A stretch of DNA of 64,000 bases, from contig JAFUAB010000008.1 of assembly GCA_017460885.1 (NCBI GenBank), forward strand, positions 1 to 64,000. The letters run 5' to 3'. The DNA is from Lachnospiraceae bacterium (lineage in GTDB: Bacteria; Bacillota; Clostridia; Lachnospirales; Lachnospiraceae). Numbering within the stretch: position 1 is the stretch's first letter; each line of letters starts with the position of its first letter. The translations under genes and the position numbers were made by a program. The notes beneath the pieces are model-generated. The model saw only the letters and a program-made list of their open reading frames with translations, was not told the origin of the DNA and did not search any database. Positions 35,335-58,779 of this stretch are shown piece by piece.

Positions 35335-35357
35335 GTTTTTCCTCCATCGGCGACAAA

Positions 35358-36878
35358 CTATATATTCAACAGTGTACTTGCAAACTTAAGAACGTTTACT
35401 TTTTCTATAGAATCCTTATTTCCAACTATATTTGTTGCTAATGCTCCGGCTACATTCCCCAAAAAAAGAGAAACCTCGTCAGCCGCTCCTGAAGCAGCAC
35501 TTATACTTGCAATAGCAAAAAAAGCATCTCCCGCACCAATCGTGTCCTTGACTGACAGAGTAAAAGCAGGGCAATTCAATACTTTGTCATCTGAGTATCC
35601 TATTGCCCCGGCAGATCCTCTGGTAAGCCACCCCTTACCTCCAAGATGAGACTGCAAACAATCGAGTCCTTTTTCCTCATCACCGGCCTGCTCAGGAAAA
35701 GCTAATTTCAATTCTTTCTGATCTACAGAAAATGCATCTGCCCTTTTATATTTTGTAATAAGGTTTAAGCCATAATTAGATGAATTTGTCTGACAATTAA
35801 GAGCTAAAAACCTGGCCTTTTCTTCTAAAAGTCTTATCATCTCCTTATTTAATAGTCCATGTCCAAAATCGCAAACAAATATTGCGTCAAATCCGTCAGC
35901 TTTCTGTGCTATAAAAGCCTCCATTGACCTATATACTTCATCTTCATATTTCATATCTTCAGAAATATTATTAATTACAAATATTTTTTGAAATTCATCC
36001 CTCTTTAAATCCTTCTCCAAGAATCTATGCTTGACAATAGTAGGTCTCTTTTTGCTTTTAAACAGTTTATACTCTATTTCTCTAGGAAGATTCTCATTAT
36101 TTATGACCGCATCGTCTCCCACAACCGACATCAATGTCACTTCGTTAGCAAAAGATTTAAGGTGTCTTGCAACTGCGAGCGCTCCACCCATATAACTCTC
36201 AGAATACTGAAGCCGTGCGGAATATCCTCTATCCTTACTCATAAGCCCCTGTATCGTACAATAAGTATACTTATCGATAATCACCTCACCAATAACAAGA
36301 ATTCTTAAGTTTGACATAGTCTGAACAATTCTCTGTATATCCTCAAAGTTATATTTTTCCTTAAAACTTTTAACATACAAGAGAATCTCGTCAGACAACC
36401 CCCCTAAAGCATTATTGATAAGCTTTGTCGAACTGAAAACAGGGCCCCCTGTAAATACAAGTCTTCCCCCATATTTTTCAACCCACGCACGCTCCTTACT
36501 GATATTCCCAGTAATATCATCCTCGTCACGAGCATACTCACTACCTTTTACATATAAATCCGGTTTAACAACATCTACAATATCTTGAACAGTATACTCA
36601 TTTGAAAGAATGACATAATCAATACAAGATATCTGTGAAAGAAACTTCATTCTCTGTTCGTCATCAAAATATGGTCTTCCAGGGCCTTTACGTACATATT
36701 GAGCTGCAGTAACCGATACGACTAAAATATCGCCCATGTTCTTAGCCTGTTCCAGATGCGCGATGTGTCCAGGGTGTACCAGATCAAAAACCCCATGACA
36801 TAGTACTATCACTTTACCTTCCATCCGTATCTGTTCCGACAATGCTTTAAAACCTTCTTTTGTTACAATCTTTGCCAT
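35358..36878 (-). CDS. HldE-like bifunctional enzyme with reversed domain order
   Basis: A 506-residue fusion. The N-terminal nucleotidyltransferase (about 1-158) has FDLVHPGHIAHLEQAK with HPGH (35-38) and VFSSTKLIN (147-155). The C-terminal PfkB kinase (about 190-506) has GEVIIDKYTY, MGGALAVARHL and DTIGAGDAFF (445-454). Canonical HldE (heptose-7-phosphate kinase/heptose-1-phosphate adenylyltransferase) places the kinase first, so the order here is inverted. With gmhA and gmhB in the same operon, an NDP-D,D-heptose product is likely. An inverted HldE or a related kinase/cytidylyltransferase for another sugar are both possible. Confidence 0.8.
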   Translation of the reverse strand: MAKIVTKEGFKALSEQIRMEGKVIVLCHGVFDLVHPGHIAHLEQAKNMGDILVVSVTAAQYVRKGPGRPYFDDEQRMKFLSQISCIDYVILSNEYTVQDIVDVVKPDLYVKGSEYARDEDDITGNISKERAWVEKYGGRLVFTGGPVFSSTKLINNALGGLSDEILLYVKSFKEKYNFEDIQRIVQTMSNLRILVIGEVIIDKYTYCTIQGLMSKDRGYSARLQYSESYMGGALAVARHLKSFANEVTLMSVVGDDAVINNENLPREIEYKLFKSKKRPTIVKHRFLEKDLKRDEFQKIFVINNISEDMKYEDEVYRSMEAFIAQKADGFDAIFVCDFGHGLLNKEMIRLLEEKARFLALNCQTNSSNYGLNLITKYKRADAFSVDQKELKLAFPEQAGDEEKGLDCLQSHLGGKGWLTRGSAGAIGYSDDKVLNCPAFTLSVKDTIGAGDAFFAIASISAASGAADEVSLFLGNVAGALATNIVGNKDSIEKVNVLKFASTLLNI

Positions 36879-40192: not shown

Positions 40193-41026
40193 TTATACTC
40201 CTCTAAGTTTTTTTCTGACTGCAAGTTCAGCATCAGAAAGGACTTTTTCACCGGTTCCCATTATCGCCGGAAGCGCCCTAATATCCTTTACTAGTCTTAC
40301 AAGGTCATCTACTTCCAGTGAAGCTGCCTGATCCGAACCATACATCGTACGATCAAGTGTAATGTGTCTTTCTACAGAACTGGCTCCCAGGGCTGCGGCT
40401 GCAAAAGAGACAATCCTACCGGATTCATGTCCGCTGTATCCCACCTTACAATGGTAACGATCCTTCAGTGTCTGCATCATTTGTAAATTTGCATCTGCAT
40501 TTTTCATTGGGTATGTACTGTTACAATGAACCAGTTCAAATGGACAATCATTATTCTTGAAAACCTCTACTGCCGCGTCAATTTCTTCCATTGAACTCAT
40601 ACCTGTAGAGACAAAAGTATATTTTTCCTCTTTTGCCACCTTGTCAAGCAATTCCATATTTGTAAGCATGGCCGATGCAATCTTGTTGTATTTCAAATCG
40701 TACTGCTCAAGGAAAGTCTGCGAATCCAGATCCCATGCGGATGCAAACCATTCAATTCCTTTCTCTTTGCAATACCTGTCAATTTCATCGTACTCTGTCT
40801 TGCCAAATTCAAGTCCCATTTTCTGCTCGCGATTAGTAGTCCCCCAGGGCGATTCCCTATACTTATCCAGTTCTTCTTTCGAGTACACCTTCTCAACTGT
40901 TCGCTTCTGAAACTTCACTGCATCACAGTCTGCCAAAACAGCCCAATCAATCAACTTTTTTGCAATATCAACATCACCATTGTGATTGATACCAATTTCT
41001 GCAATAAAAAAAGTTCTTTCCATCAT
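40193..41026 (-). CDS. NeuB-like ulosonate synthase lacking the SAF domain
   Basis: A 277-residue TIM-barrel synthase: AEIGINHNGDVDIAKKLID (9-27), VKFQKRTVEKVYSKEEL, IASAMLTNMELL, STGMSS, HCNSTYPM and YSGHESG with a later VERHITLDRTM. These are the PEP- and substrate-binding blocks of NeuB-family synthases. The protein stops at the barrel: the roughly 65-residue C-terminal SAF domain, which in NeuB dimers supplies an Arg to the partner's active site, is absent (compare 348 residues at 11.0 kb). The loss suggests a different aldose substrate, such as one without an N-acyl group. AAGGAG precedes the ATGs. Confidence 0.85.
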   Translation of the reverse strand: MMERTFFIAEIGINHNGDVDIAKKLIDWAVLADCDAVKFQKRTVEKVYSKEELDKYRESPWGTTNREQKMGLEFGKTEYDEIDRYCKEKGIEWFASAWDLDSQTFLEQYDLKYNKIASAMLTNMELLDKVAKEEKYTFVSTGMSSMEEIDAAVEVFKNNDCPFELVHCNSTYPMKNADANLQMMQTLKDRYHCKVGYSGHESGRIVSFAAAALGASSVERHITLDRTMYGSDQAASLEVDDLVRLVKDIRALPAIMGTGEKVLSDAELAVRKKLRGV

Positions 41027-41074
41027 TTTTCTCCTTAAAATGAAAACTCAATCAGGAGGATCTCTGCATCCGCA

Positions 41075-41503
41075 TCAGAGTTCCTGAACCAATTCCAGAT
41101 AATTACCTTCTGGATCCTGACAAAAGCATACATATACTTTTCCATCAGGGGACAACATGGGTTGTGAGATAAAGGTTATCCCTAATTTCGCAAGTTTATT
41201 ATATAGTATCTGTAAATCTTTTACGGTGAATGCAATATGTACACATCCACAATTGATCACATTTGAAGAATGCGCATCTTTATCACCATCACGATCAGGC
41301 TCAATAAGTTCCAGCATTGTTCCATCCGGGAATCTGAGTTTACAAACATTTATCGATAGTTCCGGATTTCCCAGTAGATTCTCAATGTACGAACCGTTTT
41401 CTATACCCTCACTGACAATCTGCATCCCAAAACAGGAACAATAGAAATCTTTCATCGCGGTAAGATCTTTTACATATATTCCCGTATGCCTGATACTTAG
41501 CAT
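41075..41503 (-). CDS. VOC-superfamily (glyoxalase-like) protein
   Basis: A 142-residue protein of vicinal-oxygen-chelate fold: IRHTGIYVKDLTAMKDFY at the start and PEGNYLELVQEL at the end give the paired beta-alpha-beta-beta-beta modules. A metal site could use His5, the Glu of MLELIEPD, His96 region and Glu near the C-terminus. It begins at the codon after the aminotransferase stop, so it is translationally linked to it. In an ulosonate operon it may act as an epimerase, lyase or isomerase on an intermediate. The specific reaction is not evident. Confidence 0.75.
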   Translation of the reverse strand: MLSIRHTGIYVKDLTAMKDFYCSCFGMQIVSEGIENGSYIENLLGNPELSINVCKLRFPDGTMLELIEPDRDGDKDAHSSNVINCGCVHIAFTVKDLQILYNKLAKLGITFISQPMLSPDGKVYVCFCQDPEGNYLELVQEL

Positions 41504-42907
41504 TTATGCTCTCCCATCCTGTTCTGCGATGATTTCTCCCATGGACTCGATAACAATATCCATTCCTTCTATGAGTGCATCCTCCGGAATAGTAAGCGGG
41601 GGACCGACTTTAATAGTTCCAGTCATAGTACGTATGGACATAAGTCCCTTTTCAAATGCCCTCTCAATTATCCGATCCACTAATTCTACATCCAATTCTC
41701 TGGTTCCAGGCTTAACAACAATTGCCGCATAAGCCATCCCCATACCATGTATAGAAACTACTCGATCAGGAAATCTGTCTTTCAACTCTGAAAACTTCTC
41801 TTTGAGAATTTTCTCTTTTTCTTTGGCTTTCTCAACTAAATGTTCAGCTTCCAAGTATTTTAGATTTGCAAGTGCAGAAGTCACAGGAAGAGGGCTTCCT
41901 CCATGAGTACTGTTAAGTGATCCGTCCACATCAAGAATCTCTCTGTTACCAAGAACCGCTGAGAGAGGCAACGCACCGCTGACTGCCTTGCCACAGCAGA
42001 TTAAATCCACATCCACACCGTAATACTCATATCCGAACAGTTTTCCAGTCCTACCAAATCCGGCCTGAACCTCATCCGAAACCAAAAGTGCTCCTCTCTC
42101 TGTCAGGAACTCTCTTAGCGCCTTGATATATCCTATCGGATAAAACAAAGCAGCCCAGCCTTGGTATGGTTCAAAAATTGCTCCTGCTATTGTGTCCGGA
42201 TCAACTCCCTGCTTCTGAAGATTCTCGATATCTTCTTGGAATTTCTGTCTTCCGGCTTCTTCATCATATATCTGGTCCATATCTCTGAAGGGATCTGTAG
42301 GGCATGGCAGGTGGTATATATACGGATCCGGTCGTCCGATCCAAGCCTGTGCAGCTGGTTTTCCGGACATGGTCTGTGCACCTAAAGTCTTTCCATGAAA
42401 CGCACCCGAGAAGGCCAGCATTCCCACCTTATCAGGATTCTTTTTTCTTCCTCGGATACGACATAGTTTCATTGCACACTCAGTTGATTCCGCGCCGGTT
42501 GTGAGTAGAAAGACTTTGTCCATATGTTTCGGAGACATTTTTACCAATTGTTCTGATAAAAGACTCCTCTGTTCCAGAAAATAATAATAACTGTTAAGAA
42601 GAGGCTTATCGATCATTTCTCTAATCGCCTCAACCATTGCCGGATTGCCATGACCTGTGTTGGTAACAAATATTCCGGAAGAGAAATCAATCCAAATATT
42701 CCCCCATCTGTCAAAAACCTGATAATCTACTGCTTTGTCCCATACTGCATAGAGCTGATGGTTCATGGACCAGGGTTCATATTTAACAGATCTTTCTATG
42801 ATTTCCATACTCTCCGGTACTGGTATCATAGTCCTGATCCTACGGTGTTTTGTCTCTATCAACGGAACCTCTTTGGGTTGCCTGTGAAACAGATACTCTT
42901 CACTCAT
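41504..42907 (-). CDS. Class III PLP aminotransferase
   Basis: A 467-residue aminotransferase of the ornithine/GABA/GSA class: TTGAESTECAMKLCR (136-150), the cofactor Asp278 in VSDEVQAGFGRTG, and the Schiff-base Lys307 in DLICCGKAVSG. Length is normal for the class. Members aminate aldehydes at chain ends, or mutate glutamate semialdehyde. Its place between a CMP-transferase and a VOC gene, rather than amino-acid genes, suggests it aminates a sugar or ulosonate aldehyde. ATGA overlap with the upstream CMP-transferase gene. Confidence 0.88.
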   Translation of the reverse strand: MSEEYLFHRQPKEVPLIETKHRRIRTMIPVPESMEIIERSVKYEPWSMNHQLYAVWDKAVDYQVFDRWGNIWIDFSSGIFVTNTGHGNPAMVEAIREMIDKPLLNSYYYFLEQRSLLSEQLVKMSPKHMDKVFLLTTGAESTECAMKLCRIRGRKKNPDKVGMLAFSGAFHGKTLGAQTMSGKPAAQAWIGRPDPYIYHLPCPTDPFRDMDQIYDEEAGRQKFQEDIENLQKQGVDPDTIAGAIFEPYQGWAALFYPIGYIKALREFLTERGALLVSDEVQAGFGRTGKLFGYEYYGVDVDLICCGKAVSGALPLSAVLGNREILDVDGSLNSTHGGSPLPVTSALANLKYLEAEHLVEKAKEKEKILKEKFSELKDRFPDRVVSIHGMGMAYAAIVVKPGTRELDVELVDRIIERAFEKGLMSIRTMTGTIKVGPPLTIPEDALIEGMDIVIESMGEIIAEQDGRA

Positions 42908-43674
42908 TTTTTATCCTCCTGACGGTAGTTTTCCTTTAAATATTTATATAATACAGAATCTGTTTTCCCGATTTCATATTCAAGGTATTCAAATTCCTTC
43001 TGTGTATCAACTTCAGTACATACCGGACTGATATATGCCATCATCCTGTCCCCGTGTAGTCCTCCATTTTTTAGTACCTGCTCACTTATCAGGACATCAA
43101 CATATCCATCGGGGATAAAGACATCTTCAAATCCTTCCCTTCCACCATTGGCCTGATCATTTGTTATCCCTTTTCTCACAGGTACAAACTCTGAACTGTT
43201 GCCAAAAAGAAACCATTTAAATGGAGACTCCGGAGCCGGATGAGCTGATCGCAGTGATGTATATGAGTGATCGTTCGATATTTTTTGGATTGCTTCATCC
43301 ACTAAATCAGGCTCTCTAAGAGGGGTAGTCGGTCTCATATGGACCAAGTATTCCGGAACTTTGCCCTCATGTTTATCAAACCAATTTATCGCATGCATAA
43401 CAAAATCGTAATCTGTCGAACTATCCAATGCTAATTCGACAGGCCTGAGAAATGGCACCTCCGCCCCATATAGTTTTGATATCTCAGCTATCTCCTCATC
43501 ATCTGTAGAAACAACGATCCTCTGTATTTGCCCCGATAATTTACACGCCACGATTGTGTATGCGATAAGCGGAAAGCCCCCAAGATTTTTAATATTCTTT
43601 CGCGGCACACCTTTAGAACCGCCTCTAGCCGGGATCAATGCTACTATACTTCCCTTATCTATCCTATAATCCAT
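42904..43674 (-). CDS. CMP-ulosonate cytidylyltransferase (second copy)
   Basis: A 256-residue NeuA/PtmB-type enzyme. IPARGGSKGVPRKN (14-27) binds CTP, then LGGFPLIAYTIVACK and HMRPTTPLREPDLVD, with a FIPDGYVDVL block near the C-terminus. It differs throughout from the copy at 7.6 kb, so it probably activates a different acid, the product of the SAF-less synthase in the same operon. The start follows the amidase-type gene by three bases with a GGGGAAGAG ribosome site. Flagellin-modification cytidylyltransferases of Campylobacter (PtmB) have this layout. Confidence 0.88.
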   Translation of the reverse strand: MDYRIDKGSIVALIPARGGSKGVPRKNIKNLGGFPLIAYTIVACKLSGQIQRIVVSTDDEEIAEISKLYGAEVPFLRPVELALDSSTDYDFVMHAINWFDKHEGKVPEYLVHMRPTTPLREPDLVDEAIQKISNDHSYTSLRSAHPAPESPFKWFLFGNSSEFVPVRKGITNDQANGGREGFEDVFIPDGYVDVLISEQVLKNGGLHGDRMMAYISPVCTEVDTQKEFEYLEYEIGKTDSVLYKYLKENYRQEDKK

Positions 43675-48164: not shown

Positions 48165-49034
48165 TTACACCTCAAACTCACCCAGATCATAATCCGAAAC
48201 ATACACCTTGGCTCTACGCTCTTCCTCCGGTGGCAGCGTCATATAATCATCATACATGTATTTAAGGAAAGCATCATAATCCCGTATGCCGTCCAGTCTG
48301 TATCCTTCGAATTCATATCTGTGTATCTGCTTAAACCATATCTTGGGCATCCCGTACATATCCTTTACGGAGTTCTTAACATACAGCCTGCCAAATGAAG
48401 GAAACAGAAGTACGCGCACCCTGTTATTGGTACGATTATTACTCTTATCCGTAATGTGGCGCATCTTCTCGAATACATAATCCGTCGGAATCCTGGATAG
48501 GCGTGTATATATCCACTTCTGAAGAGCGTTACTGTCCGGTGAATATTTACCGACTTCAGAATAGAGCACCTTCCGCCAAAGGAAACATTCTATATCGTTT
48601 ATAACCTGGCCTATAGTAGTCCTCGGGATGTCGTCCATCGGAAAGATATCAACATATACGCCTGTCTGGGAATTGATATGTTCCTGTCCGAGTCTTATAT
48701 ACTTAGTCCCGGTTCTTCTTAACTTGCCATATCCCCATCTGTATTCCGGATCCGTGGAATGATCCTGGAAGAAGCATATGCTCTTATCCAGCTTATAAGC
48801 AATCTTCTTAAATCGTTCATACTCCTCACGCAGCATCGCTATATCTGCATCATCATCCCACGGAATGTAGCCCTTGTGCCTTACTGCCCCCAATAAAGTT
48901 CCACAGCATATCACATAATGGATACCTTCCTGCTTACATACACGGTCGAACTCCACCATCATCCCCAGCTGAAGAAGCTGCATACGTCGGATTTCTTCCG
49001 GTGTCATTAGTTTTCCTTTTGCACTGTTTCCCAA
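48165..49034 (-). CDS. LicD-family phosphotransferase (classical subgroup)
   Basis: A 289-residue LicD protein of the shortest, most classical form here: TPEEIRRMQLLQLGMMVEF, GTLLGAVRH (45-53), PWDDDAD (58-64) and a C-terminal region with YRLDGIRDYDAFLKYMYDDY. It starts at TTG with AAGGAGAGACAA upstream. It is the last gene of the phosphonate block, just downstream of the nucleotidyltransferase/ADH fusion, so it is a prime candidate for using that enzyme's CMP-phosphonate. It is different in sequence from all the other LicD proteins of the window. Confidence 0.88.
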   Translation of the reverse strand: MGNSAKGKLMTPEEIRRMQLLQLGMMVEFDRVCKQEGIHYVICCGTLLGAVRHKGYIPWDDDADIAMLREEYERFKKIAYKLDKSICFFQDHSTDPEYRWGYGKLRRTGTKYIRLGQEHINSQTGVYVDIFPMDDIPRTTIGQVINDIECFLWRKVLYSEVGKYSPDSNALQKWIYTRLSRIPTDYVFEKMRHITDKSNNRTNNRVRVLLFPSFGRLYVKNSVKDMYGMPKIWFKQIHRYEFEGYRLDGIRDYDAFLKYMYDDYMTLPPEEERRAKVYVSDYDLGEFEV

Positions 49035-49049
49035 TTGTCTCTCCTTCGC

Positions 49050-51323
49050 TCATAAGCCTATTCTGTCAAGTATCGCTTTATACATCCGCTTCAGAATTTC
49101 TGTCTCAAGTTTCACCGGATGATTACCAAGCCTTTCCGGCTTAACAGTGCTGACAAGCTCATCTATAACGCTATCCTTGCCGGCATATGTGGCTGATGTT
49201 TTATCTGTAATATCCATAAAACCGGTCTGATCCAGAATCTTATCAAATTCAGATGCTGCTTCCTGCGGCGTATCACGATCGAATGCTGTAGCAAGTTCTC
49301 TTAAGGTGGTAACAAGATATTTCTCACCGCGCTTATCTATACAATCATCCGTATGCTCTATCATATACGGCCACAATTCGTTTACGCACAATGCCGCCGC
49401 ATGTCCGTGGGCGATCCCGAACATGCTCGTCAGCATATAACACATGGCGTGGCCTGCCGTGGTCTGGGTGATATTGATGGCTCTGCCCGCCAGTTGTGAT
49501 GCTCTCTGCATGGCGATATTTCCGTGATTGTCATTTGCCAGATAATCATCCATGTTATCCAATATCATACCGATGGCTTCACGCGCATAGGACTTACTCT
49601 CATCCGTGGAATTCACGGACCAGTATGATTCTATCCCATGACACAAAGCATCGAACAAGGTTGCCTTCCTGTGATAGTCCGCTACGGTCTTAAGGAAAGA
49701 CGGATCGACAAATACCATAGAAGGTATGCAACTTTCGTGCGTTATCGACTGCTTGATCCCGTTATAGTAGATAACGGCATATCTGGTCACTTCACTTCCC
49801 GTTCCTGCGGTGGTAGGTACTGCCATCAGAAGTATATTGTTCTCATCTATCCTCTGCTCCAGGTAGTTTCTGTCATGATCCATGGATGCAAAGAGTTTAA
49901 TGCATTTCGCTACATCCATAGTACTTCCGCCACCTATCGCCAATATACTGTCGCAATTCTCATCTAAGAAGAGATCGACGCCCGCTCTCACTGATTCATA
50001 CTTCGGATTGGGCGTAAAATCGGAGAATCTGACGACTTTAATGCCGGTCCTGTCTTCCAGTGTGCAGATATGACTGAACAACGGATGGTATTCAACAGCC
50101 TTGCCACATACCAGAAGAAGCCTTTTAACATGATTATCTATCAGATACTCATCTATTAACATATAGTTGTTCTCCACATACGACATCTTCTGTGATATGC
50201 CGGCACGCTTTTCCAGACGCGCATACTTGGGGTCGCTTGCATATGAGAACTCGATCAGTCTGCCTCCGTATCCGGCCAGCAGCTCAACTACCTCGTCCCT
50301 TATAGGCTTCTGAAAGCCTTCCTTCCAGTCATCGCCGTGAACCACATAGGTAGGACGGTATCTCTCTATATTATCCTTATAGCTGAGTGTCTTCTGTTCC
50401 ACCACCTGTGAAACGCCCACTATATTCTCGAATAGTACTTTTCTCTCTTCGTAAGGAAGAAGCGGATATCTCTTATAACTTGCAACCACATCATCGGATA
50501 TCACGCCTATGATAAGCCGTCCGAGTCTTCTGGCCTTCTTGATGAGTGCCATATGGCCGCTGTGGATTATATCGGTCGAGAAGCTCACATATACTGTACG
50601 CTGTTCTATACGTCTTAAGATCCCCGATACCACCTGCAGATCCTCGGGGGTATCAATCTCGTTACAGAGCATGTCCCGTACATCCAGGGGATGTATGAGG
50701 CATCTGTCACTTACCTCGTTAAACGCATTCTCCGCATAGCATTTACGCTTAGCTTCCTCACCGTTTTCGCAATAGTCGATTATACTGTTAAGCCACACTT
50801 CCCAGTCATGTTTATCCAGCTTATATAACGGCTGTGCCGCAAGCGCAGAATCGAAGAATTCAATCCCGACTTTTATGATATGTTCGTCTTCAATGACTGC
50901 TTTAAAATCTTTCTGAGGAAGAGGAAGTGTAGAACTCACAGTCATGCAACTGCCTTCGAAATTGAGTACCTCGTCAAGGACTTCATTCTCGAACACCAGA
51001 TCTCCATGCATCAGGATGATGTCATCATTCAGATACTCTCTTGCACGGTATATCGAATATATGTAATTAGTCTCTCTGAATTGTTCGTTAAAGACATATG
51101 TAACAGATAACGGAAGGTTCAGACTGCTTACGTATTCGCGCAGGACTTCGTCATGTGCACCGGTTGTGATGACCACATCAGTAATTCCTGATTCAAGCAA
51201 CTGCTTAAGCTGCCTCTCCAGTATAGTTGTGGTCCCGTATACTTCTGTCATGCACTTAGGCTGTTCCGAGGTCAGGATCCCCATCCGGGTTCCCATTCCG
51301 GAATTAAGTATCAGAGCTTTCAT
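49050..51323 (-). CDS. Three-domain fusion: LicC/PntC-like + cytidylyltransferase-like + iron ADH
   Basis: A 757-residue protein. Domain 1 (about 1-235) is an NTP transferase, NSGMGTRMG (7-15), HGDL (106-109) and EIDTPEDL (222-229), of the LicC/PntC type. Domain 2 (about 243-375) is a cytidylyltransferase-like Rossmann unit with HSGH (254-257) but without the C-terminal ISTT-type signature. Domain 3 (about 396-757) is an iron-dependent alcohol dehydrogenase with IGGGSTMDVAKC (463-474), DALCHGIE, AGHAMCYML and FGIAHGHA metal histidines. Likely role: reduce phosphonoacetaldehyde to 2-hydroxyethylphosphonate, then activate it with CTP. It starts right after the phosphoesterase gene. Confidence 0.88.
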   Translation of the reverse strand: MKALILNSGMGTRMGILTSEQPKCMTEVYGTTTILERQLKQLLESGITDVVITTGAHDEVLREYVSSLNLPLSVTYVFNEQFRETNYIYSIYRAREYLNDDIILMHGDLVFENEVLDEVLNFEGSCMTVSSTLPLPQKDFKAVIEDEHIIKVGIEFFDSALAAQPLYKLDKHDWEVWLNSIIDYCENGEEAKRKCYAENAFNEVSDRCLIHPLDVRDMLCNEIDTPEDLQVVSGILRRIEQRTVYVSFSTDIIHSGHMALIKKARRLGRLIIGVISDDVVASYKRYPLLPYEERKVLFENIVGVSQVVEQKTLSYKDNIERYRPTYVVHGDDWKEGFQKPIRDEVVELLAGYGGRLIEFSYASDPKYARLEKRAGISQKMSYVENNYMLIDEYLIDNHVKRLLLVCGKAVEYHPLFSHICTLEDRTGIKVVRFSDFTPNPKYESVRAGVDLFLDENCDSILAIGGGSTMDVAKCIKLFASMDHDRNYLEQRIDENNILLMAVPTTAGTGSEVTRYAVIYYNGIKQSITHESCIPSMVFVDPSFLKTVADYHRKATLFDALCHGIESYWSVNSTDESKSYAREAIGMILDNMDDYLANDNHGNIAMQRASQLAGRAINITQTTAGHAMCYMLTSMFGIAHGHAAALCVNELWPYMIEHTDDCIDKRGEKYLVTTLRELATAFDRDTPQEAASEFDKILDQTGFMDITDKTSATYAGKDSVIDELVSTVKPERLGNHPVKLETEILKRMYKAILDRIGL

Positions 51324-52127
51324 TTATATCCCTTTTAACAGTCTGTCTTTATAGAAACTATCCACTCTTCCGTCGTACAGCGCCCTCGCCGCTTCTATAT
51401 CGTATGGAACCGACCGAAGCTGCACACTTAAACTATCAGCATCAAGCAAGGCATACTGTGCGTTTGAATTATGATTCCTGGGCTGTCCAACCGAGCCCGG
51501 ATTGATGAACGTAACCGCATGTTTATTTCTCATATCCGGATCATCTGCATCATAGAACACGGAAAAGACATGTGAATAATGAGAATGTCCTGAGAATACT
51601 ATGTCATAGTTTCTGTAATCTCCGTTAACATTCTCCGGACTTACAGATTCCCAGAACAAACTTTGATTCTCTGCACCGCTTACGGAGTCCGGAACAATCC
51701 AATCTAAGCCGTTATCGCCGGTATCACTTCGTAAGTTCCCCAACGCTCCATGTACGGCCAGGCACTTCTTTCCTGCAAGATCGAACTCTGACATTCCTCT
51801 GACATCCATCTGTGAACTTAGATATAACTTTGTTTCATCTTTTAATACTGAAGCAGTGTATTTTGCGCAGTCCACACCACGCTGTGATGAGAATCCGCTG
51901 TAATCCTCCAGCATGATCGCACGTTCGTGATTGCCCCAGATATTACATATAATGTCATACCCTAATCTGTCACGGATGAACGCAACCGTTTCGTCGGACT
52001 GCATACCGTAATCTATGAGATCTCCGAGTAATATTACCCCGTTAATGTCATAGTCTGACATGTCTGAAACTACGTTGTTAAGGGCGTGCATATTACCGTG
52101 AATATCTGCCAGGACCGCATACAACAT
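51324..52127 (-). CDS. Calcineurin-like metallophosphoesterase
   Basis: A 267-residue phosphoesterase of PF12850/PF00149 type: ADIHGNMHALNNV, LLGDLIDYG, NIWGNHERAIM and SGHSHYSHVF supply the two-metal site, followed by NPGSVGQPRNHN. This motif set is shared with YfcE-like and diadenosine-tetraphosphatase-like enzymes. It lies between PEP mutase and the fusion gene, in the same direction and almost touching both. It might salvage or proofread CMP-phosphonate or a phosphorylated intermediate, but the substrate cannot be read. ATG 52127 with GGAGAATATTG is used. Confidence 0.85.
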   Translation of the reverse strand: MLYAVLADIHGNMHALNNVVSDMSDYDINGVILLGDLIDYGMQSDETVAFIRDRLGYDIICNIWGNHERAIMLEDYSGFSSQRGVDCAKYTASVLKDETKLYLSSQMDVRGMSEFDLAGKKCLAVHGALGNLRSDTGDNGLDWIVPDSVSGAENQSLFWESVSPENVNGDYRNYDIVFSGHSHYSHVFSVFYDADDPDMRNKHAVTFINPGSVGQPRNHNSNAQYALLDADSLSVQLRSVPYDIEAARALYDGRVDSFYKDRLLKGI

Positions 52128-52155
52128 CAATATTCTCCATTATTTATATACAGGA

Positions 52156-53451
52156 TCATAGTTCATCAATAAGCGTGATTATATTCTTTATCGACATCAG
52201 CTCGGAATCTATCTCTGCCGCCCTGTGATGTGTCAGTATACTCTTTGCAGCGTTCTCCATCGCCGGGAAAGCCGCTCTCAACAGCTGGTTCGCGTATATA
52301 CAGATGTTGGCGCCATGAGCTTCAAGTTCTTCTTCTGTAACGGTATTATATGAACTGGGAACCACAACGATTGGTGTGTTCTGATCCTGCGTTCTGAATC
52401 TGTCGCAGAATTCCAGGATCTCATCCGGTTCCTTCTTCCTGCTGTGGATCATGATGCCGTCTGCCCCTGCAGCCACATAAGCTGCTGCCCGCTTCAGAGC
52501 ATCATCGATACCCTTATCAAGTATCAGACTCTCGATCCTCGCGATTATCATGAAATCATCCGAGAGCTGCGCCTCCTTGCCTGCTACGATCTTCGCACTG
52601 AAGTTCTCTATGGAATCCTGAGTCTGTTCGACTTCAGTACCAAAGAGACTGTTCTTCTTTAGACCGGTTTTATCCTCGATGATGACAGCACTTACTCCCA
52701 TTCTCTCCAGACTTCGTACCGTATACACGAAATGCTCCGTAAGGCCGCCGGTATCGCCGTCGAAGATGATGGGCTTGGTAGTTACCTCCATTACATCTTC
52801 TATGGTCCTGAACCTGCTGGTCATATCCACCAGTTCTATATCAGGCTTGCCCTTCTCCGTAGAATCGCACAGACTGGATATCCACATGGCGTCAAACTGG
52901 TCGATCTTCTCACCCTCAACAACCATGGTCTTCTCGGCAATCAGTCCCGTCAGACCGCTGTGTACCTCTATCGCCTTAATAAGAGGCATCATCTTAAGCG
53001 CCTTATGAAGCCTGCCCCTTCTGAATTCCGGCATGGCGAGTTTCTCCCGCATCTGCTTGTCGATCTTGGTAAGCTTCGGGTCTCTGTGATAAGGGATCTC
53101 TATAAGTTCAGCTCCATATTCTTTCGTCAGTGACAGTATATTCGCCCGTATTGCCTGCATGGATTCGGCTTCCCAGTTGTCACCGTGTATGATTATATCG
53201 GGATGAAGCTGTCTGAATACCTCGTCATACATGATCTCATTCTGTACGATGACATCTTTTACTCCGTCAATGCCCTTGACCAGTTCCACTCTTTCTTCAA
53301 TTGATATTGAGGGGAACCGGTTATACTTGACCATCGCCGCATCTGCCAGAACGCCTACCGTCAGCTCACCATATTTTTTTGCTTCCTCTACAAATTTCAG
53401 GTGCCCTTCATGAATTATGTCTGTGCAAAAACATGTATATACTTTTTTCAT
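52156..53451 (-). CDS. aepX: Phosphoenolpyruvate phosphomutase with N-terminal cytidylyltransferase-like domain
   Basis: A 431-residue enzyme forming the C-P bond by converting PEP to phosphonopyruvate. N-terminal domain (about 1-130) has HEGH (14-17) and is a paralogue of domain 2 in the fusion gene nearby. The mutase barrel (about 150-425) has FDAMWISSL (186-194), DGDTGG (231-236), EDKTGLKKNS (259-268) and MIHSRKKEPDEI, the defining PEP-mutase blocks including the Lys/Asn/Ser set. These distinguish it from isocitrate-lyase-type relatives. The decarboxylase partner is at 19.8 kb. GGAGAA precedes the ATG. Confidence 0.95.
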   Translation of the reverse strand: MKKVYTCFCTDIIHEGHLKFVEEAKKYGELTVGVLADAAMVKYNRFPSISIEERVELVKGIDGVKDVIVQNEIMYDEVFRQLHPDIIIHGDNWEAESMQAIRANILSLTKEYGAELIEIPYHRDPKLTKIDKQMREKLAMPEFRRGRLHKALKMMPLIKAIEVHSGLTGLIAEKTMVVEGEKIDQFDAMWISSLCDSTEKGKPDIELVDMTSRFRTIEDVMEVTTKPIIFDGDTGGLTEHFVYTVRSLERMGVSAVIIEDKTGLKKNSLFGTEVEQTQDSIENFSAKIVAGKEAQLSDDFMIIARIESLILDKGIDDALKRAAAYVAAGADGIMIHSRKKEPDEILEFCDRFRTQDQNTPIVVVPSSYNTVTEEELEAHGANICIYANQLLRAAFPAMENAAKSILTHHRAAEIDSELMSIKNIITLIDEL

Positions 53452-53491
53452 AACTCAGTTTATTCTCCTGCTCTTTCCCGATTATTGATAC

Positions 53492-54442
53492 TTATCCCTC
53501 GAATTCTTTAGGAAACGGTACCCCTCTGCTTTCATAATACATCCGGAGCTGTTTTTCGGCTTTTGCATAGCAGGGATACTCGTGGGTAGATCCGGCGAAC
53601 CGTACCGGAGTCATGTATCCTTCTCTGTAATACGCCTTTAACACTTCATCATACCCTTCCGGAACAGGTATCTCGATCATTTCAAAGGGCATCATGATCG
53701 TTTTCTGATATGCCCTTCTGTCAATATGCTCCCGCTCCGTATTCATATAGAACTGCATATCGGCAACTTCAACTGTTCTGTCATTTCTGTAGGATGCAGC
53801 TATTTCATCCGACAGTCTCAGGAACTGGGGCTTGATAGGCTTATCGGGATCGAATTGTGCTCCCGCAGCTTCTGTAAGGGTATCCATGGCATCTTTGATC
53901 TCCGGTTTCAGATCAGCTATCCTATCCTGCTCTCCGGTATGGTAGAAGCCATAGTATGCAAGCGTATATAATGCTCTGTGTATCTCACGCTCCTCGGGGT
54001 CATCCGGAATATTATCAAGCGGAAAGATATCCACGCCGCCAATATACGGAAAACCGTGGTATCTCTCAAGATGTTTGGGTTCTACGCAGACCACATCGGT
54101 ATTGATCACCTGAAGCGTTGACGCGGTTGGGTTCTCTTCATTCCTGCCGTTAAACAGATGCCATCCCTTGGGAAGATCTCTGGGGGCTCTTGCCATGAAT
54201 TTCTCATAATCTTTACGCATCATAGTAATATCCACGTCATCATCCCATGGGATATATCCTTTATGTCTGACCGCTCCCAGCAATGTACCGAACTCTGCAT
54301 ACCATTTGATCCCATGCTTTCTGCACACTCTGGCTATGAATTCTATTATCTCTAACTGAACCGCCCAGTTACGTTTCATCATGGATGTTATGTGAAATCC
54401 GTCCCTGTCTTCCGGTTCAAAAAAACCTTCGGGAAAATTCAT
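53492..54442 (-). CDS. LicD-family phosphotransferase (RDGF subgroup)
   Basis: A 316-residue LicD protein with GTLLGAVRH (52-60) and PWDDDVD (65-71), opening EPEDRDGFHITSMMKRNWAV. It closely resembles the genes at 55.5 and 56.5 kb and the core of the one at 4.7 kb, so it belongs to the second main subgroup. A shared FPYIGGVDIFPLDNIPDDPE block is also present. It is the LicD gene immediately upstream of PEP mutase on the same strand (40-base gap), part of a run of four. Confidence 0.88.
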   Translation of the reverse strand: MNFPEGFFEPEDRDGFHITSMMKRNWAVQLEIIEFIARVCRKHGIKWYAEFGTLLGAVRHKGYIPWDDDVDITMMRKDYEKFMARAPRDLPKGWHLFNGRNEENPTASTLQVINTDVVCVEPKHLERYHGFPYIGGVDIFPLDNIPDDPEEREIHRALYTLAYYGFYHTGEQDRIADLKPEIKDAMDTLTEAAGAQFDPDKPIKPQFLRLSDEIAASYRNDRTVEVADMQFYMNTEREHIDRRAYQKTIMMPFEMIEIPVPEGYDEVLKAYYREGYMTPVRFAGSTHEYPCYAKAEKQLRMYYESRGVPFPKEFEG

Positions 54443-54464
54443 GATCGTCGTTTCCTTCTCCGAA

Positions 54465-55415
54465 TCACTTCAAACTGCCGATATACTGTCCGGCGCCGTC
54501 ATAATAGTCTCTGTATGAGTTGTCCGGATCAAACAGAGCTGTATGAGCCCCGTACCTTACCGGTTTCATATAGTCTCCGTATATGGTCGACAGGATACTC
54601 TCATATCCTTCCGCTGCCGAAAATCCAATACCTTCTACCGGTAATTCCACCGTCCTGTCATACCATTCTCTGCACATATTCGGGAACGATTCTCTGATCT
54701 CATAGAATTTATTGTTTACCATCGTGGATTTTCCCGCATAAGAGATCATCAGGCTCTCAAACAGCTTAAATCTCTCTGCTAACGGCATATCCATCATCTT
54801 TTCCAGATCACCATAGGGAACTATGGTTGCCGGTTTATCTTCGATCAGTTTTCTGCGAAGCTCATCCTTGGCAAAGATCGTATAATAAACTTCTTTCTGC
54901 AATTCAAGCATCTCGCCAGTAAAGCCCTTATCATCCCTGGCATCGTCAATCGGGAAAATATCAATGTATATACCCTGATTGACAGATACAGGCATACCCG
55001 GTTCCTCTATAGCTGCCGTATTGGAATTCTTGATCTTTCCGAAAGGATGGAGCTTAAGCGCCGTATCATCACGTACGTCCGGATTCTCCAGGACAGTATA
55101 CATATCCTGCCACTCATACGGAGGCTCAAGCTCCTGTTTCAAAATCTCCTTGGCCTTCTCATAATCCGGGCGGAACATCTCAACATCAACATCATCATCC
55201 CACGGAATAAACCCCTTATGTCTGACAGCTCCGATCAGAGTACCATACTGAAGATAGTATTTCAGATTATTTTCCCGACAGATACGATCGAACACCACAA
55301 GGATTTCCAGTTCCTTTGCCCAGATCTTCTTTCTGAGTTCGGTTACTGTGAAGTCACATATTGTCTCTTCGCTATAGAAATCCTTGCGCAACAGCTCGTC
55401 TATACTTGTATACAT
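54465..55415 (-). CDS. LicD-family phosphotransferase (WDFKVT subgroup)
   Basis: A 316-residue LicD protein with GTLIGAVRH (58-66) and PWDDDVD (71-77). The opening (ICDFTVTELRKKIWAKELEIL) and C-terminal half match the genes at 18.9 and 25.3 kb rather than its neighbours, so it was not formed by a simple local duplication. Its Val-for-Leu in the catalytic block is conservative. The 112 bases upstream (55416-55527) show no clear promoter or structure. Confidence 0.87.
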   Translation of the reverse strand: MYTSIDELLRKDFYSEETICDFTVTELRKKIWAKELEILVVFDRICRENNLKYYLQYGTLIGAVRHKGFIPWDDDVDVEMFRPDYEKAKEILKQELEPPYEWQDMYTVLENPDVRDDTALKLHPFGKIKNSNTAAIEEPGMPVSVNQGIYIDIFPIDDARDDKGFTGEMLELQKEVYYTIFAKDELRRKLIEDKPATIVPYGDLEKMMDMPLAERFKLFESLMISYAGKSTMVNNKFYEIRESFPNMCREWYDRTVELPVEGIGFSAAEGYESILSTIYGDYMKPVRYGAHTALFDPDNSYRDYYDGAGQYIGSLK

Positions 55416-55527
55416 CCCACTATCACCGGTCTGTCTTCCATTGCCGGCTCTTCAATGACTTGCCACAACTCCACGTTGCTATACCATATATTGTACTATG
55501 ATTCTTCATCAAACACAAATTATTCCA

Positions 55528-56538
55528 TCAGGATAAACCGTTAAGTTTGTGCCAGTTTCTGCAGAATTCGTCTACCGGCGTATCAACTCCCGATTCATGA
55601 AGCAGTTCGACAAAAGCCTTTTCCTGTGTTGCATAAAAAGGATATGTGTGATCCGCGGCAAATCTCACAGGAGTCATGTAATCGTCCCCGAACTCCCATT
55701 TCAACACGTCGTCATATTGAACCGGGACATTGATCGTAGTGCACTCAAACTCCTTTTCAGTTCCTTCCGAAAACCATTCTGCTTTCATCGAATTAAATCC
55801 GTTGAATCCTCTCCGGTCTGAAGGAGTACGCAAATACAGAATATCGCTGACGCTGTCACCTTCGCCGCAACAGCTTGCAGCCAGTCTGTCCGACGCCAGC
55901 CATATCGCATGGGCATATTCCTCATCATTGTTAATATCATATGTTATATCATCCAGCAGATACTTATATGGTTTTATGCGGCTGTTTAAGGTTCCGTCCT
56001 TTCTATACACATCAAGATATCTGCCGGCAGTCTGCAGTTCATTGACGCCCTGTATAAGATCGTATTGCCGGTCAGGATCCGACGGAACATTATCTAACGG
56101 AAATATATCAACCCCTATCCTCATGTATGGAAAAGCATGAAAATAATTCATGTATCTTGGCAGTGTAAATACAGTTTCATCAGCTATAACTCTTCCCTGC
56201 GGTTCACCGTTCGCCTTCCAAAGCCTCGGTTCGCTGCCATATATTCCGGATATCACGAATCCCTCCGGCAGTTCTTCGTCCGCAATCTGCATAAATCTGT
56301 CATAATCGGAACGCAGCATGGCTATATCTATGTCATCATCCCACGGAATAAAGCCATGGTGCCTGATAGCGCCCAGTAAGGATCCGCAATATGCAAAATA
56401 AATCAGACCATTATCAATACACAGATTCCTGATGACATCAAGAACCTCGAGTTCAGCAGCCCATGCCCGTTTCATCATCTCGGGGACCGTAAAACCATCC
56501 CTTATTTCTTCGTTAAAGAATTCCTGCGGAAAGATCAT
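55528..56538 (-). CDS. LicD-family phosphotransferase (RDGF subgroup)
   Basis: A 336-residue LicD protein with GSLLGAIRH (52-60) and PWDDDID (65-71). It shares EEIRDGFTVPEMMKRAWAAE with its neighbours. The middle (about 175-260) diverges most, which may set acceptor choice. ATGA overlap with the LicD gene upstream shows the pair is co-translated. Confidence 0.87.
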   Translation of the reverse strand: MIFPQEFFNEEIRDGFTVPEMMKRAWAAELEVLDVIRNLCIDNGLIYFAYCGSLLGAIRHHGFIPWDDDIDIAMLRSDYDRFMQIADEELPEGFVISGIYGSEPRLWKANGEPQGRVIADETVFTLPRYMNYFHAFPYMRIGVDIFPLDNVPSDPDRQYDLIQGVNELQTAGRYLDVYRKDGTLNSRIKPYKYLLDDITYDINNDEEYAHAIWLASDRLAASCCGEGDSVSDILYLRTPSDRRGFNGFNSMKAEWFSEGTEKEFECTTINVPVQYDDVLKWEFGDDYMTPVRFAADHTYPFYATQEKAFVELLHESGVDTPVDEFCRNWHKLNGLS

Positions 56539-57503
56539 TCCTGTTTCGTCCCCTCCGGAAATATCGTGAACTCTTCGGGGAACTCCTGACCCTGCTGCTC
56601 GTACTGCTTCCTAAGTGTTCTTTCATCACGGATAAAATACGGATATTCATGAGATGCACTTGTGTTTCTGGGGGTCATATAATCTCCATACCATATACTA
56701 AGAACCTCATCATAGCCCTGAGGTACAGGCAGATTAGTAACCTCAAAATCAAATCTTACGATCTTACTGTATGTTTCAACAGGGAACACTATAGCCGGAT
56801 TCACGCAGTAATACGGTACTACCGTCATTCTGGAAGTCTCGACATCATAGTACATAGCCGAAATATGATCCGCCAGATCCAGAAGCTGTGGCTTGATGGG
56901 CACGGAATAATCAAAATCATAACTGCACACATCCGCAAGCTGGTATATCTCATCCCGGACAAGTTCTTCGCAGTCATCAGCCAGCTGTCCGATTTCAGCG
57001 CCCTTGAAGGCATGATAGGAGATAGTGGCCAGTTCCCTGAACGACGCTTCTTCCTCCGGATCATCCGGAATCTTATCGATCACAAATATATCCACTCCGA
57101 TTATATACGGACAGCCATGGTTATTCTTAAGAAATGCAGGACTGGTATTGATATTAGATGTATTCTGAACCTGCAGGATCGCTTCGGAAGGATTCTTATC
57201 CTGTCTTCCGTTGACCAGTCTATAGCCCTTTGGGAGTTCTTTCCTGGCATACCTCATGAATTTCTCATAGTCCGGCCTCAACATGGATATATCGATATCA
57301 TCGTCCCACGGAATGTAACCATTATGCCTTACTGCTCCGATCATGGTTCCGAATTCCGCAAACCAGCGTATCTGGTATTTTCTGCATATTCTGGAGATGA
57401 CTTCCAGAATATCCAGTTCAACGGCCCATGCCCTCTTTACCATTGGGCTTATATAGAAACCATCCCTTTCCTCGCCTTCAAAGAAACTCTCATCAAAATG
57501 CAT
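56535..57503 (-). CDS. LicD-family phosphotransferase (RDGF subgroup)
   Basis: A 322-residue LicD protein with GTMIGAVRH (52-60) and PWDDDID (65-71), closest in layout to the gene at 53.5 kb (both have a PIKPQ(L/F)L block in the C-terminal half). GAGGAGATTAGAAA precedes the ATG. It is the first gene of the four-LicD run and may be co-transcribed with the FkbM-type gene 49 bases upstream. Confidence 0.88.
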   Translation of the reverse strand: MHFDESFFEGEERDGFYISPMVKRAWAVELDILEVISRICRKYQIRWFAEFGTMIGAVRHNGYIPWDDDIDISMLRPDYEKFMRYARKELPKGYRLVNGRQDKNPSEAILQVQNTSNINTSPAFLKNNHGCPYIIGVDIFVIDKIPDDPEEEASFRELATISYHAFKGAEIGQLADDCEELVRDEIYQLADVCSYDFDYSVPIKPQLLDLADHISAMYYDVETSRMTVVPYYCVNPAIVFPVETYSKIVRFDFEVTNLPVPQGYDEVLSIWYGDYMTPRNTSASHEYPYFIRDERTLRKQYEQQGQEFPEEFTIFPEGTKQE

Positions 57504-57552: not shown

Positions 57553-58779
57553 TTATCTGCGGACCGCCCTGACTACTCCGTTTCTGAAATACGGAGGTCT
57601 GATGCGTTCATATTTGCCGTTTTCAAATAAGCTCCTGCAATACAGAAACAACATATAATGGTCCGATGTATATGAGCTGTATCCGTTACGTTCGAAGAAA
57701 TCCATTACTTCGTCACGCTCATCATTGGTATGATACACGGCGCAGGATACGTGACAGTTATTTCGCTCAAGCGTTTTCTGCGCACCTATCAGGGCATCCG
57801 GTTCCATACCTTCGATGTCCATCTTGATAAAGATATCTCTGTCTCTATATTCGTTCAAAAGTGTATCTATGGTTATCGTGGTGTCATCATCAGAAGCTCC
57901 GGCATACTTTGGGATGATATGGACTTTATCCATATGATCTTTGAATGTTTCCTTCAATGTCCTGATCCAATTGTCGGAGCACTCTATCAGATACACCTCA
58001 GAAGCTCTGTCGACCGCATCAAGAGCGATGATTCCCTCTGCCGTGCCCACATCAACGAATATATCCCCGTCATTTAAACAGCATCTGTTATCAAAATACT
58101 GATGAGGGCTTTCCATATCCTGTTCTAATATAAGCTGATTGTATTCTCTTTGAACATCCTCATCGTTCCATTCGGGGAAGAACAATTTCTTTCCGTGGTG
58201 TTCCACATATTTAAGTCCGCATGTCTCATCCCTGAAAACCCGGACCTTCGAAGCATCATATCTCTCCGTATAATTATATGGAAAGACATATATCTTATTA
58301 TGCCTGCGCATATAATCAGCTTCTTCCGGATAGTCAGCATCGTATCCGTGTGACAGTACGATATCGTTGCCAAGAATGTTCAATACTTCCTGAATCTCTG
58401 CATTAATCTCTGCTTCCGGTACCTTCGCCGCTGCCTCGCACATGATCCTGTGGCAGCCAGATGATACATGTATCATACACTTCCCTGACAGTTTTGATGC
58501 GGAAGATACGAGTCCATCATAATCCTCACTGTCACGAAGTTTCTGAAGACTGGCGGTATCGTCTCTTAACCCTTTGCATGAACCGGCTCCGAACATGGTT
58601 TCCATGCTGTCTATAACAGACATATATCCCGATATAACAGCAGATGAAAGTTCTTTTTTCTGGTCAGTATCATCTGTTTTGACTATCTCTTCCCTTACAT
58701 AGTCCAGTCTGTTGATCACGCCGTTGATGGTCTTCTCATATTCTTTTGTATTCGCCTGTGTCTCAAAGTATTTTTTCAT
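57553..58779 (-). CDS. FkbM-type methyltransferase with helical N-terminal region
   Basis: A 408-residue protein. Residues 1-130 are helical and charged. The C-terminal half has the FkbM-type methyltransferase core: IFVDVGTAEGIIALDAV (motif I), VYLIECSDNW, and IFIKMDIEGMEPDALIGAQKTL (the FkbM signature around the central Asp-Glu). FkbM proteins O-methylate sugars and lipid or glycan precursors. It lies 42 bases downstream of the flagellin lysine methylase gene and upstream of the LicD run. It may methylate a flagellar glycan sugar, which is inferred from context. Confidence 0.8.
   Translation of the reverse strand: MKKYFETQANTKEYEKTINGVINRLDYVREEIVKTDDTDQKKELSSAVISGYMSVIDSMETMFGAGSCKGLRDDTASLQKLRDSEDYDGLVSSASKLSGKCMIHVSSGCHRIMCEAAAKVPEAEINAEIQEVLNILGNDIVLSHGYDADYPEEADYMRRHNKIYVFPYNYTERYDASKVRVFRDETCGLKYVEHHGKKLFFPEWNDEDVQREYNQLILEQDMESPHQYFDNRCCLNDGDIFVDVGTAEGIIALDAVDRASEVYLIECSDNWIRTLKETFKDHMDKVHIIPKYAGASDDDTTITIDTLLNEYRDRDIFIKMDIEGMEPDALIGAQKTLERNNCHVSCAVYHTNDERDEVMDFFERNGYSSYTSDHYMLFLYCRSLFENGKYERIRPPYFRNGVVRAVRR

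Follow-up and report, generated by a model that had tools for sequence, protein, structure and literature searches.

The first 64,000 nucleotides of contig JAFUAB010000008.1 from a Lachnospiraceae bacterium (assembly GCA_017460885.1; hereafter the window) carry phosphonate biosynthesis genes together with genes for LicD-type transferases. We favor, with some reserve, the interpretation that these genes constitute a phosphonyl-tailoring module within a flagellin glycosylation island, which arose by the merger of two gene sets, termed block A and block B, and which would attach 2-hydroxyethylphosphonate (HEP) to the flagellin glycan. That a phosphonoglycan is made is well supported.

In the proposed route, PEP mutase (PepM) would convert phosphoenolpyruvate (PEP) to phosphonopyruvate, from which phosphonopyruvate decarboxylase (Ppd) would form phosphonoacetaldehyde. 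The iron-dependent alcohol dehydrogenase (Fe-ADH) domain of a three-domain protein would then yield HEP, and the cytidylyltransferase (CyTase) domain or domains of the same protein would convert HEP to CMP-HEP. Finally, a LicD protein, the best candidate being LicD48, would move the phosphonate onto a heptose/nonulosonate-type flagellin glycan. Block A, consisting of an NTP transferase (NTP)-CyTase-PepM protein, Fe-ADH and Ppd, would have lost its own PepM, which block B would now provide. We infer each catalytic step, HEP as the product, the acting LicD and the flagellin glycan as acceptor; the domains, motifs, gene sets, PepM remnant and association counts described below are established by sequence. 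The genes concerned are:

48165..49034, minus strand: LicD48, candidate phosphonate transferase
49050..51323, minus strand: NTP transferase, CyTase and Fe-ADH protein of 757 residues, looking like block A without PepM
51324..52130, minus strand: calcineurin-like metallophosphoesterase (MPE), block B (PF12850, PF00149)
52156..53451, minus strand: fusion of CyTase (aa 1-146) and PEP mutase (aa 147-431), block B (PF01467 and PF13714)
53492..54442, minus strand: LicD family transferase with PWDDD motif
54465..55415, minus strand: LicD family transferase
55528..56538, minus strand: LicD family transferase
56535..57503, minus strand: LicD family transferase
19812..20948, minus strand: Ppd (TIGR03297, 477 bits against a cut-off of 312.5)
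21065..22369, minus strand: P21, Rossmann-fold dehydrogenase-like protein, block B marker
22338..23348, minus strand: P22, extended short-chain dehydrogenase/reductase (SDR) of the nucleotide-sugar dehydratase/decarboxylase kind, block B
23354..24202, minus strand: DUF6564 nucleotidyltransferase-like protein, block B marker (PF20202, 314 bits)
18869..19819, minus strand: LicD family transferase
25252..26214, minus strand: LicD family transferase
4693..6051, minus strand: LicD family transferase with C-terminal extension (PF04991, aa 49-281)

A preliminary description of the window had named a PEP mutase with the motifs EDKTGLKKNS and DGDTGG, a phosphoesterase lying together with five LicD genes, three further LicD genes, and a Ppd at 19.8 kb overlapping one of the latter. 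All of these are borne out: the PEP mutase scores 406 bits with TIGR02320 (cut-off 320) and carries its motifs at 52648-52677 and 52744-52761, the phosphoesterase is found at 51324-52130 with the LicD genes starting at 48165, 53492, 54465, 55528 and 56535, the other three LicD genes start at 4693, 18869 and 25252, and Ppd, in which the thiamine diphosphate motif is present, shares 8 bases with the LicD gene 18869-19819. Matches so far above curated cut-offs are not chance. Absent from that description were the N-terminal CyTase of the PepM protein and the genes 21065-24202, which form a PepM-linked set in relatives. This CyTase (Pfam match aa 11-94) has an HEGH motif, and the domain order of the whole protein is that of Fom1, with both HxGH and EDKX5NS present. 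Ppd lies 31 kb from PepM in the window, but both genes are in the same operon in several block B loci.

The fused nucleotidyltransferase/iron-ADH described earlier is real (49050-51323), but it has three domains and not two, a Fom1-like CyTase having been missed. A PntC/LicC-like NTP transferase occupies aa 1-236, the CyTase aa 237-376 and Fe-ADH aa 377-757, with Pfam matches to NTP_transferase (aa 2-115), CTP_transf_like (251-345) and Fe-ADH (395-664). All motifs examined are intact. The protein contains GMGTRMGILTSEQPK (GxGTRx8PK), HSGH and the Fe-ADH metal-ligand motif regions; HxGH was found twice, once in each CyTase-bearing protein of the window (HSGH and HEGH). The definitions of the PntC and PepM motifs were taken from Rice et al. 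(2019, PMC6697681).

Among all solved chains, 5x3d was the best match both for the central domain of this protein (CT1; 131.8 bits, 45% identity; runner-up 56.3 bits) and for the CyTase on PepM (CT2; 96.8 bits, 33% identity; runner-up 39.5 bits). Certain other CyTase-PepM proteins are up to 56% identical to this chain. The chain is annotated as phosphoenolpyruvate phosphomutase, and we take it to be the cytidylyltransferase domain of Fom1. The NTP domain matched LicC (1jyk, 44.6 bits) and PntC (6pd1, 36.3 bits). The Fom1 CyTase makes CMP-HEP (PMC6697681). HEP is the likely product and is preferred over 2-aminoethylphosphonate (AEP) because Fe-ADH replaces the aminotransferase of Treponema denticola PntC. 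AEP is disfavored by the lack of an above-cut-off AEP transaminase in the genome, where the best TIGR02326 (PhnW) match reaches 43.8 bits against a cut-off of 400.8 and lies outside the window; for the class III aminotransferase at 41504-42907 the highest scores came from acetylornithine/GABA-type models, none of which reached its cut-off. The linear route from PEP to CMP-HEP proposed in the preliminary description is supported by the Fe-ADH domain and the match of CT1 to the Fom1 chain, but two gene sets seem to have been merged in it. A single linear pathway with one nucleotidyltransferase was rejected, as the window holds four nucleotidyltransferase-type domains (three of the cytidylyltransferase type and DUF6564) in two separable gene sets.

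To place the three-domain protein among its relatives, genomes of named species were scanned with the 757-residue sequence, giving 62 loci, whose domain content was determined by BLAST with the window domains; some of these stretches stop at contig ends. In 47 of the 62 loci, more than for any other form, NTP, CyTase and PepM are fused in one frame; this triple fusion characterizes block A. Within the flanking stretches, Fe-ADH was matched in 41 of these 47 loci and Ppd in 42, mostly as separate genes. With identical sequences and loci flagged as duplicates left out, the CyTases compared over all fetched loci came from 50 triple fusions, 41 CyTase-PepM proteins, three NTP-CyTase-ADH proteins (window, L001 and L002) and three NTP-CyTase proteins (L005, L016 and L040, the last ending at a contig end). 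All 56 CyTases of NTP-CyTase proteins fall into one clade (local support 0.94), which also includes six of the 41 CyTase-PepM proteins (L051, L053, L054, L056, L057 and L059); the CyTase-PepM of the window and Fom1 both fall outside. CT1 is 58-71% identical to the 50 triple-fusion CyTases, on average 45% (33-67%) to the 41 CyTase-PepM proteins and 36% to CT2 of the same window. On the basis of these identities, with which the tree agrees, we rejected the idea that CT1 was duplicated from the PepM-linked CyTase. The protein 49050-51323 looks like a block A triple fusion minus PepM. Besides these architectures, an NTP-ADH fusion without cytidylyltransferase occurs at L054:10001-11740, adjoining CyTase-PepM and Ppd.

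The NTP-CyTase proteins of L005 and L016 have tails beyond the CyTase. That of L005 is a PEP mutase remnant (TIGR02320, 35.7 bits over positions 151-241; 33.4 bits with a purpose-built profile), and that of L016 gives a weak PEP mutase match by BLAST (E 4e-4) which the profile missed. Each of the genomes of L001, L002, L005 and L016 has exactly one above-cut-off PepM, in a CyTase-PepM frame of 433-437 residues, together with full-length P21; the window genome likewise has its PepM in a 432-residue frame and full-length P21. P21 was not found in the genomes of two controls, L009 with a retained triple fusion and L054 with the NTP-ADH fusion. A sample of the family contained 13 genomes with PepM frames of 669-706 residues, taken as triple fusions by length (G018, G086, G132 and G176 were domain-checked), and none of these 13 has full-length DUF6564. 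Block B is therefore present in 5 of 5 genomes with a PepM-less NTP-CyTase protein (the window genome G000 and those of L001, L002, L005 and L016) and in 0 of 14 triple-fusion genomes, 13 of them judged by full-length DUF6564 and one by P21 (Fisher P = 1/11628, worked by hand; the count omits L040, cut by a contig end, and L049 and L050, which have NTP frames only). The PepM losses may represent one event or several. We do not claim several independent losses, though the best tree has three changes; a tree uniting the three direct ADH fusions in a single clade was not rejected (p 0.21).

Block B is a second conserved set, consisting of CyTase-PepM, phosphoesterase, the SDR P22, DUF6564, P21 and Ppd. 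In the window it is split, with CyTase-PepM and MPE at 51-53 kb and DUF6564, P22, P21 and Ppd at 20-24 kb, so that the halves lie at opposite ends of the island, separated by sugar genes. The six genes are adjacent in G047, G177, G767 and G697 (CyTase-PepM, MPE, P22, DUF6564, P21, Ppd), and G584 has the same six in a different order plus a LicD gene. The first five are found on a 4.3 kb contig of G312, with P21 incomplete; on the 26 kb contig of G166 block B is accompanied by LicD genes but lacks Ppd; and in the genomes of L001, L002 and L016 the set is spread across two contigs each. Both blocks meet in L005, where one same-strand run contains NTP-CyTase, Fe-ADH and Ppd, then CyTase-PepM, MPE, LicD, P22, DUF6564 and P21. 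MPE accompanies block B in L005, G047, G166, G177, G312, G396, G397, G399, G584, G697 and G767. P22, which shows the motifs GVTGMTG, STSEVY and YATGK, is 66-87% identical across block B loci. The block A protein was not found in G047, G177, G312 and G166; the best match in each was the CyTase-PepM of that genome, ahead of Fe-ADHs with no more than 30% identity and short NTP or CyTase matches.

The two block B markers go with PepM. DUF6564 scoring at least 285 bits occurs in 5 of 396 genomes of the family, and in each of them PepM lies on the same contig; 28 further genomes gave matches of at most 36.2 bits, largely through NTP domains of triple fusions, and were excluded from this count. Full-length P21, with scores above 600 bits (the best remaining match reached 23), was found in 5 of 391 genomes of the class, all of them PepM-positive, and none of the 15 genomes with weak P21 matches has PepM. 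No full-length P21 or DUF6564 without PepM was found in the genome samples searched. This association suggests that both proteins belong to a phosphonate pathway. By sequence, no solved relative was found for P21 (best E 0.31) or for DUF6564 (up to E 1). A search of the open-licence literature returned no paper naming DUF6564, and as far as that literature was searched block B is apparently undescribed. The block B operon has PepM and Ppd but no Fe-ADH or AEP transaminase; it does contain a phosphoesterase and, in P22, DUF6564 and P21, proteins resembling nucleotide-sugar enzymes. A tentative idea, to which we give clearly less weight than to the merger, is that block B represents an uncharacterized pathway remodeling a CMP-linked phosphonate on its nucleotide handle, so that the island would add both HEP and a second phosphonate to flagellin via separate LicD proteins.

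The surroundings of block B differ between loci. Genes for YidC-domain and PF04464 proteins flank it at L165:1992-6058, L166:4570-8692 and L005:140-2173 and 12396-14657, and the flanks in L165 and L005 also contain sulfatase-like domains; these loci possibly make a teichoic-acid-like phosphonate polymer. Directly upstream of block B in G177 (L125:3467-6958) are genes for a solute-binding protein, an ATPase and, as judged by its sequence, a permease-like protein.

Eight of the ten LicD matches of the genome lie within the window, and all eight keep the PWDDD motif. Among 36 LicD frames in the fetched loci, five match a window LicD at 55% identity or more over full length, and all five match LicD48 (L001, L005, L016, L036 and L112; 55.7-60.1%); this search covered the loci fetched for phosphonate genes, with stretches of the window's own genome excluded. 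LicD48 is hence the one window LicD seen repeatedly beside the module in these loci. Next after the triple fusion and Ppd of L038, a single protein (L038:13159-15465) combines, by Pfam, an Fe-ADH domain (101 bits) with a LicD domain (153 bits), and L039 shows the same arrangement by BLAST from 13315 to the contig end. Since this natural fusion exists, the earlier proposal of LicD as phosphonate transferase gains support, and triple fusion, Ppd and Fe-ADH-LicD of L038 would make up a near-complete phosphonoglycan route in three genes.

The Fe-ADH-LicD fusion also bears on the idea that a free, diffusible phosphonate is made in the manner of fosfomycin, with only transient cytidylylation and with LicDs as unrelated glycan enzymes using other donors. 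The Fom1-like architecture is indeed present, as is a phosphoesterase that could remove CMP, and in L056, L057, L059 and L060 CyTase-PepM is followed by a protein ending in a CyTase-like domain; moreover, cytidylylation of HEP is transient in fosfomycin synthesis (PMC6697681, title of its reference 28). Against this stand the fusion itself, the position of LicD48 beside the module in five loci and the glycan-island setting, and we regard a free product as improbable. Two of the proteins following CyTase-PepM, L056:11320-12756 and L057:6348-7775, are radical S-adenosylmethionine (SAM)-CyTase fusions by Pfam; they are encoded between the genes for CyTase-PepM and Ppd and hint at radical reactions of CMP-phosphonates.

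The best-known role of LicD homologues concerns phosphocholine, and the LicDs of the window could use CDP-choline or CDP-polyols, with DUF6564, P22 and P21 making the donor or an acceptor sugar and PepM being peripheral. LicC-choline kinase fusions do adjoin block B genes in G166 (L112:4784-6409) and G397 (L146:1557-5685), in the latter with a BCCT transporter and with the block B genes following, so that phosphocholine and phosphonate may be handled together in these two genomes. The window genome gave no PF01633 match at E 0.001, against 54 bits for the fusion of a relative as positive control, and with that fusion as query only its NTP part was matched; the earlier statement that no choline kinase is visible thus holds genome-wide, although choline transporters were not searched for. 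With full-length P21 confined to PepM-positive genomes in the class sample of 391 and PepM missing from all 15 genomes with weak matches, such a phosphocholine/polyol-phosphate system appears slightly less probable still than a free phosphonate.

We return to the module favored here and its setting. From ~13 to 58.8 kb a single strand encodes two flagellins, FliD and then a long series of glycan genes, nucleotide-sugar and transferase genes thus lying in the same run as flagellin and FliD:

14240..15085, minus strand: flagellin (PF00669, 149.6 bits)
13143..13955, minus strand: second flagellin (PF00669, 149.7 bits)
16212..18203, minus strand: FliD, flagellar cap, adjoining the island (NF005833, 201 bits, under the cut-off of 444)
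27589..36878, minus strand: heptose-type region with GmhA-like (27589-28161) and HldE-like (35358-36878) genes, all under equivalog cut-offs
40193..43674, minus strand: nonulosonate-type genes for a NeuB family protein, a class III aminotransferase and a PseF/NeuA-like CMP transferase
57553..58779, minus strand: FkbM-type methyltransferase domain protein, 49 bases upstream of the LicD genes

The phosphonate module has its two halves on either side of the nonulosonate-type genes, and the GmhA-like and HldE-like genes would provide a heptose-type sugar for the same glycan. To see whether flagellin and PepM are associated in relatives, we used the 396 family genomes, of which 46 have PepM above cut-off, 33 of these also with flagellin of at least 100 bits (weaker flagellin matches were dropped, for instance one in G128 that scored 98.7 bits and shares a contig with PepM, as was G122, below cut-off). 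A distance of no more than 20 kb between flagellin and PepM was seen in 6 of the 33 genomes, where uniform placement with rounded genome sizes would give at most 0.83 (P 1.6e-4). At 30 kb the count is 6 against an expected 1.17 (P 9.5e-4), and at 40 kb it is 8 against 1.49 (P 1e-4; without the window genome 7, P 6e-4). The flagellin-near loci include block A (G132, G176 and G018), block B (G166) and other CyTase-PepM sets (G148, G299 and G377). This enrichment supports the flagellar context proposed in the preliminary description, and flagellin as the target is likely but unproven.

The same chemistry could also serve a capsule, a teichoic-acid-like polymer or another surface glycan, the adjacency of flagellin then reflecting a shared glycan locus. 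We consider this possible but doubtful, a little less probable than the two-phosphonate variant above. In its favor, flagellin is missing from the available flanks (at most 10 kb) of 60 of the 62 relatives, block B adjoins YidC-domain and CDP-glycerol glycerophosphotransferase-family (PF04464) genes in L005, G767 and G697, and capsular AEP has been reported in Bacteroides fragilis (PMC6697681; PMC12413058). On the other side, the window module lies inside one same-strand run from FliD and flagellin to 58.8 kb with nonulosonate- and heptose-type genes, and flagellin proximity in relatives is above chance at 20-40 kb.

Several points weigh against flagellin-directed HEP transfer by a merged module. 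The case is built on sequence, not chemistry. Within 10 kb of PepM, flagellin is found in 1 of 33 genomes (P 0.37, not significant), the distances were compared after the data had been seen, the distance in the window itself is 37 kb, and only two of the 62 relatives have flagellin in their available flanks (L033 and L041, named metagenome-assembled genomes with flagellin and block A in the same stretch). CMP-HEP formation by CT1 is suggested by resemblance only, and the Fom1 CyTase falls outside the clade holding CT1. The best score of Fe-ADH is with ErcA (156 bits), ahead of TIGR03405, the model for phosphonate ADH (129 bits), and neither score comes near its cut-off. The AU test did not reject one shared origin of the PepM loss (p 0.07), so that the five genomes are perhaps not five independent events. 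Because all loci were fetched for phosphonate genes, confinement of LicD48 to such loci is not shown; its relative in G166 precedes the LicC-choline kinase fusion and could be a phosphocholine enzyme there. The seven other window LicDs have no assigned role.

Some features of the island and assembly deserve mention. The domains of the HldE-like protein are reversed, with the cytidylyltransferase-like domain before the PfkB kinase; the usual order in HldE is the opposite. NeuB (40193-41026) is short (277 aa), and Pfam matches its NeuB domain with no match to the C-terminal SAF domain usual in this family. An FkbM protein also immediately precedes CyTase-PepM in G166. A scan for promoters and terminators gave counts no higher than in shuffled sequences. 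Just to the right of the window, on the same contig, a broken Fe-ADH relic with several stops (C38:65966-66526; L066:1969-2493) is ~39-41% identical to the ADH domain of the 49050-51323 protein; the other window proteins compared have no match within the 20 kb holding it. The source genome (3.6 Mb, 55 contigs) is 99.06% complete with 6.64% contamination, and the pairs C33:45891/C50:79567 and C32:32777/C38:168090 of G000 are equal-score matches on different contigs, perhaps due to a duplicated or mixed assembly (contamination 6.6%).

The locus offers a testable gene set inside a flagellin island, with the same neighborhood in certain relatives. The Fe-ADH-LicD and NTP-CyTase-ADH fusions would tie HEP formation, cytidylyl activation and LicD transfer together within single proteins, and both bear on the question, left open by Rice et al. 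(PMC6697681), of what follows the CMP-phosphonate. If the proposed route is correct, flagella would carry a phosphatase-resistant C-P group, with possible consequences for phage binding and host sensing.

Phosphonyl tailoring systems that use fused nucleotidyltransferases have been described before (Rice et al. 2019, PMC6697681). The Pnt clusters described there share with the window PepM fused to PF01467 and PF12804/LicC-like nucleotidyltransferases, Ppd and LicD-like transferases, and 42 PepM triple fusions with both nucleotidyltransferase domains were counted. The window has the corresponding EDKX5NS PepM, Ppd, a nucleotidyltransferase fused to or near PepM and LicD nearby; the AEP transaminase of the AEP-type system (PntC-AEPT) was not found above its cut-off. 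The characterized PntCs activate AEP, that of T. denticola being fused to an aminotransferase, whereas the partner in the window is Fe-ADH; neither "alcohol dehydrogenase" nor "flagell" occurs in the main text of that paper (PMC6697681). Fom1 shares the N-terminal CyTase on PepM, and both window CyTases match its chain best, but the closer one (131.8 bits, 45%) is on the ADH protein and that of PepM is more distant (96.8 bits, 33%). The Lic phosphocholine pathway (LicA/B/C/D) shares LicD transferases and the LicC-like NTP domain; it differs in its choline kinase LicA, which was not found here, and donor synthesis in the window would instead use phosphonate genes. HEP-type phosphonoglycans were reportedly found by Yu et al. 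in 2014 in Stackebrandtia/Glycomyces, in exopolysaccharide of actinomycetes rather than on flagellin.

In the open-licence papers searched, we found none linking phosphonate biosynthesis genes to flagellin glycosylation. Phosphonylated glycoproteins have been proposed from marine PepM genes near oligosaccharyltransferase-like domains (PMC8931226), and in the excerpts of a Pelobacter paper flagellin and PEP mutase are handled as separate topics. The closest parallel in Clostridia is Clostridioides difficile, whose type A flagellin glycan was chemically shown to contain 2-AEP (Hensbergen et al. 2022, PMC8861647); we likewise propose a phosphonate for the flagellin glycan here. The authors of that study note that an earlier survey had scored C. 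difficile as PepM-negative and that it is not known where the AEP comes from (PMC8861647). In the window, by contrast, the phosphonate genes sit in the flagellin island itself and predict HEP.

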